IMG/VR virus record: IMGVR_UViG_3300021197_000990
Span: 1-60,656 of that record
Reading direction: 5' to 3' (one strand)
Source of the DNA: a virus
Length of the DNA stretch: 60,656 nucleotides
Made by a program: the position numbers and the translations under genes. Positions 919 to 60,656 of this stretch are shown in pieces. Below the pieces are notes generated by a model that did no database searches, was not told the origin of the DNA, and saw only the letters and a program-made list of their open reading frames with translations. The first letter of the stretch is position 1; every line of letters begins with the position of its first letter.

Positions 919-1950
919 ATGGATAAATCAATTAAATACTGTTTCTCTGACACTAAAGAACCATTGTTCTGGTGTGACATCAAAGGTGAAACATGGTGGG
1001 GTTACATTGACGGTACTGTAGAGTTTCACGCAATGAGTGATGCTGACGCCGATGTTCTCTATGGACAAGGTAAAATTGTAGAAGAAGACAAAGCTTATGG
1101 AGACATGTCAGTTATGTTCGGAGATATAAACCTCAAAAACATCGGTTTACTCGGTGGTCCAATCGATGCTAACATCAAAGCCTCTTATGGAGCTGATGGT
1201 GATAAGGAAGACAAAGCAGAAGTTGGTATCATTCGTCTACCAAAAGACTATGATGCCACGTTAGTAAACACCGATATACTTCCTGATGATCTTGCAGCTA
1301 AACTAGAAATAGCACTAGCCAAAGAAGATCGTCCGTCATGCATATCTATATTGTTCGATGGTGTGCCAGGTACAGGTAAAACTATGGCCGCAGCTTACAT
1401 TGCAGACAAGATGGGTCGTAAGCTTAAATCATATAAGCTAGGTGAACTGCTTGGCAAGTATGTAGGTCAAACTGAGAAAGCTCTAATGAAAGCGTTCGAT
1501 GATGCAGAGAAAGAAGGTCACATCTTACACCTAGATGAGATCGACTCTATTGCTAGCGACCGTGGTAAAGCTGATCGTTCATACGAAGTAAAAGCTGTTA
1601 ACGCTCTATTGCAAAGTATGGATACGTTCGAAGGTATATTCATTGCAACTACGAACTCTAAGGATGGATTAGACAGTGCTATTAAACGTCGATTCCTACT
1701 TAAGAAAGAGTTCAAGAATGTTACAGGTACACAAGCTGACAAACTAGCTAAGATGTTCTTTAAGCGTAAAGCTCCTAAGAACTTACCAGATGACATTCTA
1801 GCTCCTGCAGACTTTAACCTAGTTAAACACTCATTGCTATTCATAGAAGATGACAAGATCAATAAGAAGTTCATCGAAGAGCAATTACTAGAAGAAGCTG
1901 CAGAACGTAATGACACTAAGAATAAAGCTAACAAAATAGGGTTCTTATAA
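919..1950 (+). CDS. AAA+ ATPase with C-terminal IGFL tail
   Basis: 343 aa. Residues 1-135 are an unrecognised N-terminal domain. The AAA+ module follows with Walker A GVPGTGKT, Walker B ILHLDEID, sensor-1 ATTN and an Arg-Arg pair (IKRRF) at the arginine-finger position. This arrangement is closest to the FtsH/Cdc48/proteasomal ATPase group. The helical lid follows, and the chain ends K-I-G-F-L. IGF/IGL tripeptides are what ClpX and ClpA use, from an internal loop, to bind ClpP. This phage encodes a ClpP at 12487, so a proteolytic partnership is a reasonable inference. Alternatives are a remodeller of replication or host complexes. Confidence 0.88.
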   Translation: MDKSIKYCFSDTKEPLFWCDIKGETWWGYIDGTVEFHAMSDADADVLYGQGKIVEEDKAYGDMSVMFGDINLKNIGLLGGPIDANIKASYGADGDKEDKAEVGIIRLPKDYDATLVNTDILPDDLAAKLEIALAKEDRPSCISILFDGVPGTGKTMAAAYIADKMGRKLKSYKLGELLGKYVGQTEKALMKAFDDAEKEGHILHLDEIDSIASDRGKADRSYEVKAVNALLQSMDTFEGIFIATTNSKDGLDSAIKRRFLLKKEFKNVTGTQADKLAKMFFKRKAPKNLPDDILAPADFNLVKHSLLFIEDDKINKKFIEEQLLEEAAERNDTKNKANKIGFL

Positions 1951-3034: not shown

Positions 3035-3463
3035 ATGACTTACTTAATATACAAAAATCTTCACAATGGCTTATGGTCTATCAAATGTAAGAAAACTGGT
3101 CTAGTTGTAGGTCATGCTGAAGCCATCATTATGCAAGATGTTCAACCTAAAGTGTCAGAAGCAGGTCGCAGACGTGTTCTCGCAACTCGCTCTAAAGTTG
3201 TTCATGCATATATTGCAGGTGATATACTACATACATTTGGTTTCACTAGCTTCAGAGGTCGTAACTACTCTCAAACAAAATGCAAAGCACCACTTAATCT
3301 CTCCTCTATGACACCTAGAGAAGATATCACGTACAACCCATATCAACATTCAGAGTTCGTATTCCGTGGCTCTAATCAACCATATGCAGGTTCTGACATA
3401 GTAATTCTCACCAATGATGGTGTAGCTTGTCACGACTTTATTAACAAATCTATAGAGGCATAA
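3035..3463 (+). CDS. Conserved-type phage protein of unknown function, 142 aa
   Basis: The ATG follows ATAGGTGAAATC. The opening (YKNLHNGLWSIK, then VVGHAEA and a GRRRVLATRSKVVHAYI stretch) resembles a protein type seen in many unrelated phages with no assigned function. That resemblance is from memory and could not be checked. No catalytic motif is evident. Confidence 0.75.
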   Translation: MTYLIYKNLHNGLWSIKCKKTGLVVGHAEAIIMQDVQPKVSEAGRRRVLATRSKVVHAYIAGDILHTFGFTSFRGRNYSQTKCKAPLNLSSMTPREDITYNPYQHSEFVFRGSNQPYAGSDIVILTNDGVACHDFINKSIEA

Positions 3464-12486: not shown

Positions 12487-13077
12487 ATGAATTTCACTCC
12501 AATTGTAATCGAGAAAACTGATAAGTCTGAACGTAGCTATGACATCTACTCTCGTCTATTAAAAGACCGTACAGTATTCTTGAACGGTGGTGTAGATGAT
12601 AACGTAGCAGCAACAGTAGTAGCACAGTTGTTATTCTTAGAAGCAGAGAATGCTGATGAGGATATTACATTATTCATTAACTCACCTGGTGGTGTAGTGT
12701 CTGCTGGCTTAGCAATGTATGACACAATTCAATTCATTAAACCAGATGTAAGAACTATTGTAACAGGTCAAGCTTGTTCAATGGGTTCATTCCTAGCTAA
12801 CGCTGGCGCACCTGGAAAACGTTACATGTTACCTAATGCAAGACATATGGTACATCAAGTATCTGCTGGTACCTCAGGACAATGTTCTGATATGCGTATA
12901 GCAGTTGAAGAAGCTACAAGAATTAACAACACTCTTGCTACGATATATGCAGAGCATAATAGCAAGGGTAAATCAGTAGAAGATCTACTTAAAACTATGG
13001 ACCGTGATACCTGGATGACCGCAGAAGAGTCACTAGAGTACGGATTGATAGACGAGATCATTACTAAAAGAGCATAA
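12487..13077 (+). CDS. clpP: ATP-dependent Clp protease proteolytic subunit
   Basis: 196 aa, close in length and sequence to bacterial ClpP ([31 protein letters not shown]). The triad is intact: Ser98 in GQACSMGS, His123 in MVHQV and Asp174 in [11 protein letters not shown]. The bacterial propeptide is nearly absent. Alone, ClpP rings cut only small peptides; they need an AAA+ unfoldase. The phage AAA+ protein at 919, ending IGFL, is an obvious candidate, and host ClpX/ClpA are the alternatives. Targets could be host regulators or phage scaffold. Ribosome site AAGGAATCTATT. Confidence 0.93.
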
Positions 13078-58810: not shown

Positions 58811-58876
58811 TAACGCTGTGTAGCTAATAGCTAGCGAGCAGTAACATTATATAAATCAACAACTTAGGTGATTATC

Positions 58877-59596
58877 ATGGAAATTTTATTAATGCTTTTA
58901 ATTGCTATCATTATGGTAGCATCTGTAGGTGCTGTGTCACGCAGCTTAAATAGTGACCTTGTTAAAGGTTACGTCAACATGGCTATCTTTATCGGTGGTC
59001 TAGTTCTAGCAACTTCAATGCTGCTTGCATTCGAAGCTACAGCTCAAGAACTGCAAGACGATGAAGCTGTCGAGTATGTCATGCTATCTGGCGACGTAGA
59101 TAAAGCTATGCTGCTTAAACTAAAGAATGCAATAGCTAAGTATCCAAACCTTAAAACTATTGCTCTAGACTCACCAGGCGGTTACGTTCATATAGGTTTT
59201 GAGATCGGTCACATTATTCGTGAAAACAATCTTAACACTTATATCTATGGTAACGGCTCATGTGCGTCTGCTTGTACTTATATCTTTATGGGTGGCAAGT
59301 ATAGAGGTATGCAATTCGGTGGTAAATTAGGTTTCCATCCTGCTCGTGCTGGTGGTTTTCCTGGTTCTATACCACTAAATGACATCTTGCTTGACGGTCA
59401 ACGTCTAAGTCTTGATGCTGCAGAGTACTTCTTAACTATGGTTAATGCAGACCACAGACTTAAGATTATTCAGTTCTTATCAAAGAGCTATCAGAATACT
59501 CATTATAGTCAAATGGATTGGTATGTACCACGTAAGGATAACTTGTCTCATACGAGCTTGTTCCATGCAGGTGTTGTTACACACTTCTTCCTATAG
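58877..59596 (+). CDS. Exported ClpP-fold (COG3904-like) serine protease-type protein, 239 aa
   Basis: Start ATG 58877, because the GTG further upstream lacks a ribosome site and AGGTG lies seven bases before. Two hydrophobic segments (about residues 3-17 and 34-53), then a signal-peptidase-like A-T-A site. The mature part has LDSPGGYVHIGFEIG, then GNGSCASACTYIFMGGKYRG and LGFHPAR: the Ser-Ala-Cys nucleophile loop and the Gly-Phe-His active-site region of periplasmic ClpP-fold proteins. It may act on the host envelope or remain membrane-anchored. Confidence 0.7.
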   Translation: MEILLMLLIAIIMVASVGAVSRSLNSDLVKGYVNMAIFIGGLVLATSMLLAFEATAQELQDDEAVEYVMLSGDVDKAMLLKLKNAIAKYPNLKTIALDSPGGYVHIGFEIGHIIRENNLNTYIYGNGSCASACTYIFMGGKYRGMQFGGKLGFHPARAGGFPGSIPLNDILLDGQRLSLDAAEYFLTMVNADHRLKIIQFLSKSYQNTHYSQMDWYVPRKDNLSHTSLFHAGVVTHFFL

Positions 59597-59681: not shown

Positions 59682-60212
59682 ATGACTATGATCACTGAAC
59701 CACGCACTGTATTCGTTAAAGATGTAACTTTAAACTATGCAAAACTAGTTAAACCAGTTAATCCTTTCGGTACAGAACAATATGAGTTGCAAATTGCGAC
59801 TACAGATTCTGCTACAGCTCAAACTATGCGTGACTTAGGTCTTAACGTTAAAGAGAAAGATGGCTCATTTACAGCTTCTCTTAAGCGTAAAGCACGCAAA
59901 GCCAATGGTGATGACAATGGTCGTCCTGTTGTAATAGATGCAGGTCTTAAGCCAATCGATGATAACCAGCTTATGAAATTAGGTAATGGTTCTGTCGGTA
60001 ACGTTAAGTTATACCAATATCCTTACGATGCTGCTGGTCGTAAAGGTACTGCAACTTCATTAACAGCTGTGCAAGTTGTTGATTTTGTTGAGTATGTTGG
60101 TGGTGGCGTTGAGGCTGGCTTCTCGGTTGTAGGTGATAGCTTACCTGCAGCATCTGAGCAAGACACTGTAGACGAGCAAGCTGAACCAGATATGGCAAGC
60201 ATGCCTTTCTAA
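59682..60212 (+). CDS. Single-stranded DNA-binding protein
   Basis: 176 aa. The region TVFVKDVTLNYAKLVKPVNPFGTEQYELQIATTD, then a beta-barrel core, then an acidic Gln/Asp/Glu tail ending M-P-F, is the pattern of T7 gp2.5-type phage SSBs, whose terminal Phe contacts replication proteins. It coats ssDNA for the polymerase and primase-helicase. Ribosome site ACCAAGAGGAAATCTATT. Its last 122 bases are repeated at the window start. Confidence 0.85.
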   Translation: MTMITEPRTVFVKDVTLNYAKLVKPVNPFGTEQYELQIATTDSATAQTMRDLGLNVKEKDGSFTASLKRKARKANGDDNGRPVVIDAGLKPIDDNQLMKLGNGSVGNVKLYQYPYDAAGRKGTATSLTAVQVVDFVEYVGGGVEAGFSVVGDSLPAASEQDTVDEQAEPDMASMPF

Positions 60213-60222
60213 TATAGAATAA

Positions 60223-60259
60223 ACCAGATGGTCCTTACGGATCGTCTGGTATTTTTTTT
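60223..60259 (+). terminator. SSB terminator (right repeat copy)
   Basis: Same stem as at 133-171, with an 8-T tract instead of 10. Confidence 0.85.
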
Positions 60260-60272
60260 GGGATGATGTTTC

Positions 60273-60437
60273 ATGGATATACTTACAGATTTAAGAGTAA
60301 TTCTCTTTATAATATTTGCAGTAATCGTATCTGCAGCTTTTTATCCTATAGAAACATGTGCAGTATTGGCAGTCTTTATACTTCAGCAACAGTTCTCCTT
60401 TTGGAGATCGTTTCTTCGGTCCACTCGTGGATCTTAG
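60273..60437 (+). CDS. Small membrane protein, 54 aa (right repeat copy)
   Basis: Encodes exactly the same protein as 185-349; the two nucleotide differences are silent. In a circular or permuted molecule this would be one gene between SSB and the 566 gene. Confidence 0.6.
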   Translation: MDILTDLRVILFIIFAVIVSAAFYPIETCAVLAVFILQQQFSFWRSFLRSTRGS

Positions 60438-60656
60438 ATTAATTTTTGCTGCGCGCCGAGATCGATCTTACAGATCGACACGTCACGACCAGATGTTCCC
60501 TCTGGAACTCCCTTAGGAGCAGAGGAGCGTTAGGAGCACAGGAGCGTTAGGAGCACAGGAGCGTTAGGAGCCAGGGAGCGGGAGCAGGAGCCTGGGGTGT
60601 GCCGGACAGGCGTCCATGAAATAATGTCCAGCTGAAGCTGTCCAACCATATAGGAT

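Follow-up and report, generated by a model that had tools for sequence, protein, structure and literature searches.

We propose that a marine-type phage, whose genome makes up the window (the whole stretch of 60,656 nucleotides analysed here), produces its own Clp-type protease, in which a classical AAA ATPase ring probably docks on the phage's ClpP through the C-terminal tails of its subunits (Table 1). According to this proposal, the AAA protein would act as a hexamer, as is expected from its family, and would unfold substrates and thread them via its K-Y-V-G pore loop into ClpP for degradation. Six flexible tails, each ending I-G-F-L, would enter the hydrophobic clefts of ClpP and so stand in for the IGF/IGL loops that ClpX and ClpA carry internally, whilst the N-terminal domain of the AAA protein probably picks the targets.

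Table 1. Features of the window that bear on the proposed protease.
Feature	Position	Strand	Basis
Classical AAA ATPase, proposed phage Clp-type unfoldase, 343 aa	919..1950	+	Translation, PF00004, AlphaFold, Foldseek
N-terminal small beta-rich domain, residues 1-60	919..1098	+	Alignments, AlphaFold model
Walker A GVPGTGKT, residues 148-155	1360..1383	+	Sequence; columns invariant in homologue alignment
Pore loop 1 K180-Y-V-G183, aromatic, substrate-gripping	1456..1467	+	Homologue alignment
Walker B LHLDEID, residues 203-209	1525..1545	+	Sequence; alignment
Arg-Arg (R257, R258), second region of homology	1687..1692	+	Invariant in homologue alignment
Putative C-terminal docking tail I-G-F-L	1936..1947	+	Conservation; predicted disorder
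Canonical ClpP, 196 aa, triad S98/H123/D174	12487..13077	+	PF00574, alignment to E. coli
Second ClpP-fold-like protein with N-terminal hydrophobic segment	58868..59596	+	Weak NfeD1b_N match

The AAA protein matches PF00004 in a profile search (E 1e-27, 97.6 bits against a cut-off of 21.2) and is a classical AAA ATPase of the Cdc48/PAN-like type, with Walker A and B motifs, sensor 1 (N246) and Arg fingers all present. Its AlphaFold model (mean pLDDT 84) finds the best Foldseek matches in p97/Cdc48, Rix7, 26S Rpt subunits, Msp1 and spastin; the model places a disordered linker (residues 62-99) ahead of the AAA domain and a final helix at residues 316-336. The domain formed by residues 1-60, here limited to the four-member closest phage clade, is a probable substrate or adaptor domain. 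The aromatic-hydrophobic-G pattern of pore loop 1 is conserved across nearly all aligned homologues, and a K-Y-V-G loop is typical of protein-threading AAA proteins. The protein is not a Clp/Hsp100 (HCLR) unfoldase such as ClpX or ClpA: profile searches gave no match to ClpB_D2-small (PF10431) and only 17.2 bits for AAA_2 (cut-off 27), and the large AAA domain lacks an internal IGF loop, the sole I-G-F of the protein being residues 340-342. Searches with the ClpB_D2-small and AAA_2 profiles also found no Clp/Hsp100 unfoldase in the window genome.

The translation ends in NKANKIGFL, and the earlier note was thus right in placing a ClpP-docking tripeptide at the very C terminus. The tail conforms exactly to the consensus for ClpP docking, (L/I/V)-G-(F/L) (PMC8745299; PMC7112951), and residues 335-343 are predicted to be disordered (pLDDT below 50), which fits the expectation for a docking peptide. 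Since the tail is also of low confidence in the model of one bacterial relative, neither monomer model supports a place for it within the AAA fold. One point against docking by the tail is that a linear IGF peptide is a poor activator of ClpP (PMC8745299).

The earlier note had staked its reading on conservation of the tail in homologues, and this holds. The closest phage clade ends in KIGFL, KVGFL, KVGFAHE and KAGFAHE, and the ends of distant homologues (RPIGFIH, LRMGFVHH, QPLGFRA, KVVGF, RPIGFGR and KVGFLK) gave first hints of wider retention. A genome scan then provided 80 bacterial homologues, 78 of them usable, which usually carry two AAA domains (~650-750 aa); the query included the tail, so that a mild bias to tail-bearing members is possible. 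The G and the F are present without exception (78/78), the preceding residue is I in 56, M in 13, V in 4 and L in 3, and GF is followed by 0-3 residues to the end in 71/78, whilst positions of the linker before the tail are poorly conserved (mostly at or below 35%). The M found at this position is seen too in a phage ClpX loop (L142). Amongst unrelated ORFs from the fetched DNA (~1,680 with 150 aa or more), a hydrophobic-G-F within the last 10 residues occurs in ~6 (about 0.4%), and chance is ruled out as the origin of the tail. A clade also exists whose members have long C-terminal extensions or lack a terminal GF (L013, L014, L047, L048, L050); AAA proteins outside the family (L004, L006, L007) show no G-F at the end. 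The family tree reveals that the tail is ancestral to this AAA family, bacterial members included. For the private AAA-ClpP machine with unusual docking that the earlier note had suggested, this means that tail conservation and adjoining ClpP genes (see below) speak in its favour, but that the tail itself is not a phage speciality.

The claim that the same phage carries a ClpP with intact Ser98, His123 and Asp174 was confirmed: the protein matches PF00574 with E 1.4e-72 (243.9 bits), and the three residues align to Ser97, His122 and Asp171 of E. coli ClpP. The alignment suggests that the hydrophobic cleft is largely kept, with L48, F49, F62, F82, I90, Y112, L114 and I189 retained and T present where E. 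coli has Y60 and M92; also retained is R192, a residue that ClpX requires (PMC7112951). The AAA and ClpP genes lie on the same strand but 10.5 kb apart, a distance that counts against the proposal. The PHROG labels of ClpP as a head-maturation protease are unlikely to apply, given that the gene sits in the early/replication block (DNA polymerase, exonuclease, primase-helicase and RNA polymerase) and that the capsid and portal genes are on the opposite strand. The second ClpP-fold-like protein, which carries the motif GSCASAC, is possibly linked to the AAA/ClpP system.

In the viral-contig scan, the only full-length relatives of the AAA protein were three distinct sequences, L017 (three contigs with an identical protein), L020 and L091, which are 50-53% identical to the window protein; L020 and L091 are 84% identical to each other. 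The residues before GF in this four-sequence clade are I, V, V and A. In all three relatives ClpP lies downstream of the AAA gene on the same strand: its start overlaps the AAA gene in L020 and L091, and in L017 one 59-aa ORF with overlapping ends stands between the two. In L017, the gene that follows ClpP is homologous to window 3035-3463 and the one directly upstream of the AAA gene to window 58868-59596; the region is therefore common to both phages, with ClpP having changed place in one of the lineages. As the three relatives are mutually related, AAA and ClpP may have become neighbours just once, in an ancestor, and support for monophyly of the four ClpPs is weak (47). The SSB of L020 (1480-1986) and that of L091 end in GSVGF, likewise a hydrophobic-G-F, where the window SSB ends in MASMPF.

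The window genome looks complete, since its end repeats its own start: a near-identical direct terminal repeat of about 560 bp, with a small length change, spans 1-566 and 60091-60656. A short-repeat array around GGAGC/AGGAGCGTTAGGAGCAC lies inside this repeat near the left end (425-500). The nearest isolate is Roseobacter phage CRP-7, with a terminase 65% identical; no ClpP is annotated in its first 20 kb. CRP-7 has a MoxR ATPase at a like place to the window AAA, and orthology of the two was ruled out (E 0.05). A megablast of phages gave no result, nor did viral-contig scans with the AAA alone and with the RNA polymerase alone.

A reciprocal viral-contig scan with ClpP covered 42 other contigs. 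Of the 13 other canonical-ClpP phage contigs of at least 60 kb, 12 match the AAA profile; eight of these proteins were read, and each proved to be a ClpA or a ClpX whose internal loop is IGF, VGF or MGF. A published example is jumbo phage Atu_ph07, which has both ClpX and ClpA along with a Clp proteolytic subunit (PMC6102473). As the window genome is without a Clp unfoldase, its classical AAA protein would take that vacant place. In a second phage group, more distantly related, the AAA proteins have 565-612 aa and end in VGYHL, TGYEL, AGYDM, SFQF and similar. Here, each contig with sufficient sequence past the AAA gene (9/9) encodes a ClpP-family protease 3.5-11.4 kb further downstream, those without ClpP ending 0.3-7.2 kb past the AAA gene; the triad is kept in the five ClpPs aligned, and in one contig the interval is a nucleotide-metabolism block (dCMP deaminase, ribonucleotide reductase). 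Unlike in the window clade, the cleft positions of these ClpPs are polar (82 S/T, 112 S/T, 114 T/S, 192 Y). Large phages with AAA proteins of 294-312 aa and the tails ISF, IEF or IEL likewise have ClpPs with altered clefts. It thus looks, from few lineages and an uncertain alignment, as if phage tail and ClpP cleft change together (GYHL, SFQF, ISF, IEF). Co-occurrence with ClpP, another point on which the earlier note had rested its reading, also speaks in its favour: ClpP adjoins the AAA gene in every close relative. Two phage groups nevertheless show none, namely AAA proteins of 460-471 aa with an IGFH tail (no ClpP within 14 kb) and of 312 aa with a KIGF tail (no ClpP in a 48-kb contig). 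Such contigs are probably incomplete, or host ClpP is used. The 48-kb contig without ClpP holds a single-AAA protein of 308-312 aa (L243:2222-3148) that ends exactly in KIGF.

The fetched flanks of the bacterial carriers examined hold no ClpP gene; the neighbours are a WYL regulator (43/80) and a DUF2779-like nuclease (21/80), the latter named by its sequence likeness to an annotated neighbour type. This cassette of double-AAA protein, WYL regulator and nuclease (L150-L229) is uncharacterised and possibly defence-like. Most of the bacterial family would have to use host ClpP. A strong ClpP match is present in 41/46 carrier genomes and the five negatives are all MAGs, which fits such use but says little, given that nearly all bacteria have ClpP. 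In organisms lacking ClpP, archaeal and mycoplasma plasmid matches stop short of the tail, and the single mycoplasma protein that was read lacks a G-F tail and has an S8 protease as its partner. A wider reading, to which we give an even chance, is that classical (Cdc48/PAN-clade) AAA proteins of bacteria and phages constitute an unrecognised class of ClpP partners that dock by a C-terminal [IMVL]-G-F: bacteria would pair them with host ClpP, some phages would have acquired the two components jointly, motor and peptidase, as a protease of their own, and tails would follow diverged clefts (GY.., FQF, I[SE]F).

The ancestry of the tail could also mean that the phage AAA protein uses host ClpP, or competes for it with host ClpX/ClpA, in which case the IGF tail would be an inherited plug and the phage ClpP a separate tool or a replacement for the host enzyme. 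The ClpP matches in carrier genomes agree with this, as does the retention of canonical IGFH and KIGF tails in phage groups without a visible ClpP. We nevertheless consider it unlikely: ClpP stands right behind the AAA gene in the closest relatives, and the window retains both genes even though they are separated. An improbable explanation in our view is that the G-F tail binds either a different partner or its own AAA ring, and that the AAA protein is a remodelling chaperone for replication or virion proteins. Bacterial members do lie beside WYL regulators and nucleases and not ClpP, and the open-access literature searched gave no account of a classical AAA docking on ClpP; set against this are the exact match of the tail to the ClpP-docking consensus, the linkage to ClpP in two phage groups and a tail predicted to be unpacked in the monomer models.

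The tail codons might instead be kept in phages as a Shine-Dalgarno sequence for the overlapping downstream gene. The K-V-G codons are indeed Shine-Dalgarno-like just before the overlapping start in L017 and L020 (AAGGTAGG), with a similar arrangement in L091, and in the window aatAGGGttc precedes an ATG at 1950. In bacteria, however, GF is invariant whilst a Shine-Dalgarno-like sequence occurs in only 10/78, and the Gly codons are mixed (GGT 25, GGG 23, GGC 22, GGA 8), as are the Phe codons, which indicates selection on the protein and no nucleotide signal. We therefore reject this as the sole reason for the tail in bacteria and give it hardly any credence overall, although it may add to conservation in phages.

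The proposed AAA-ClpP protease shares with ClpXP and ClpAP an ATP-driven ring, ClpP and the [ILVM]-G-F tripeptide, the ClpP partner here being phage-encoded; it differs in that the AAA protein belongs to the PF00004 clade, without ClpB_D2-small or an internal IGF loop, and bears the tripeptide at the C terminus of a disordered tail. With PAN, Mpa and the Rpt subunits it has in common the classical AAA fold and a flexible C-terminal tail that would serve for docking. The HbYX motif of proteasomal ATPases (PAN/Mpa) is absent from the window AAA, in its place standing hydrophobic-G-F-x(0-3) (I-G-F-L); the N domain also differs, and the proposed partner is ClpP rather than the 20S proteasome. In HslUV the C-terminal tails of the unfoldase bind the peptidase, as proposed here, but HslU is of the HCLR clade, HslV is a threonine protease and the tail sequence is another. 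The best PADLOC/NCBIfam match of the window AAA is IetA of the IetAS defence pair, which has a related AAA domain; the score of 96.3 bits is far under the NF042959 equivalog cut-off of 510, and the partner of IetA is a subtilisin-like S8 protease. The AAA proteins that were read beside S8 proteases (L016, L279) end without G-F, and no S8 protease is amongst the Pfam matches for the 27 window ORFs that were scanned. The bacterial double-AAA proteins beside WYL regulators share the AAA domain, with 28-36% identity to the phage protein, and the [IMVL]GF tail, and differ in their usual two AAA domains and in ClpP not being adjacent; no experimental name for this 'AAA family ATPase' was found. An open-access literature search on phage-encoded ClpP or C-terminal IGF docking gave no result, and the open-access literature searched held no description of the bacterial relatives as ClpP partners.

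To our knowledge, all motors that serve ClpP are Clp/Hsp100 members acting via internal loops, and docking by the C terminus is a trait of the proteasome and HslUV. If a classical AAA protein did plug into ClpP by its C terminus, it would bridge both architectures. Phages would then run an independent protein-degradation machine and a widespread uncharacterised bacterial AAA family would gain a partner: if the motif can be taken at face value, its members would be an overlooked class of ClpP partners.
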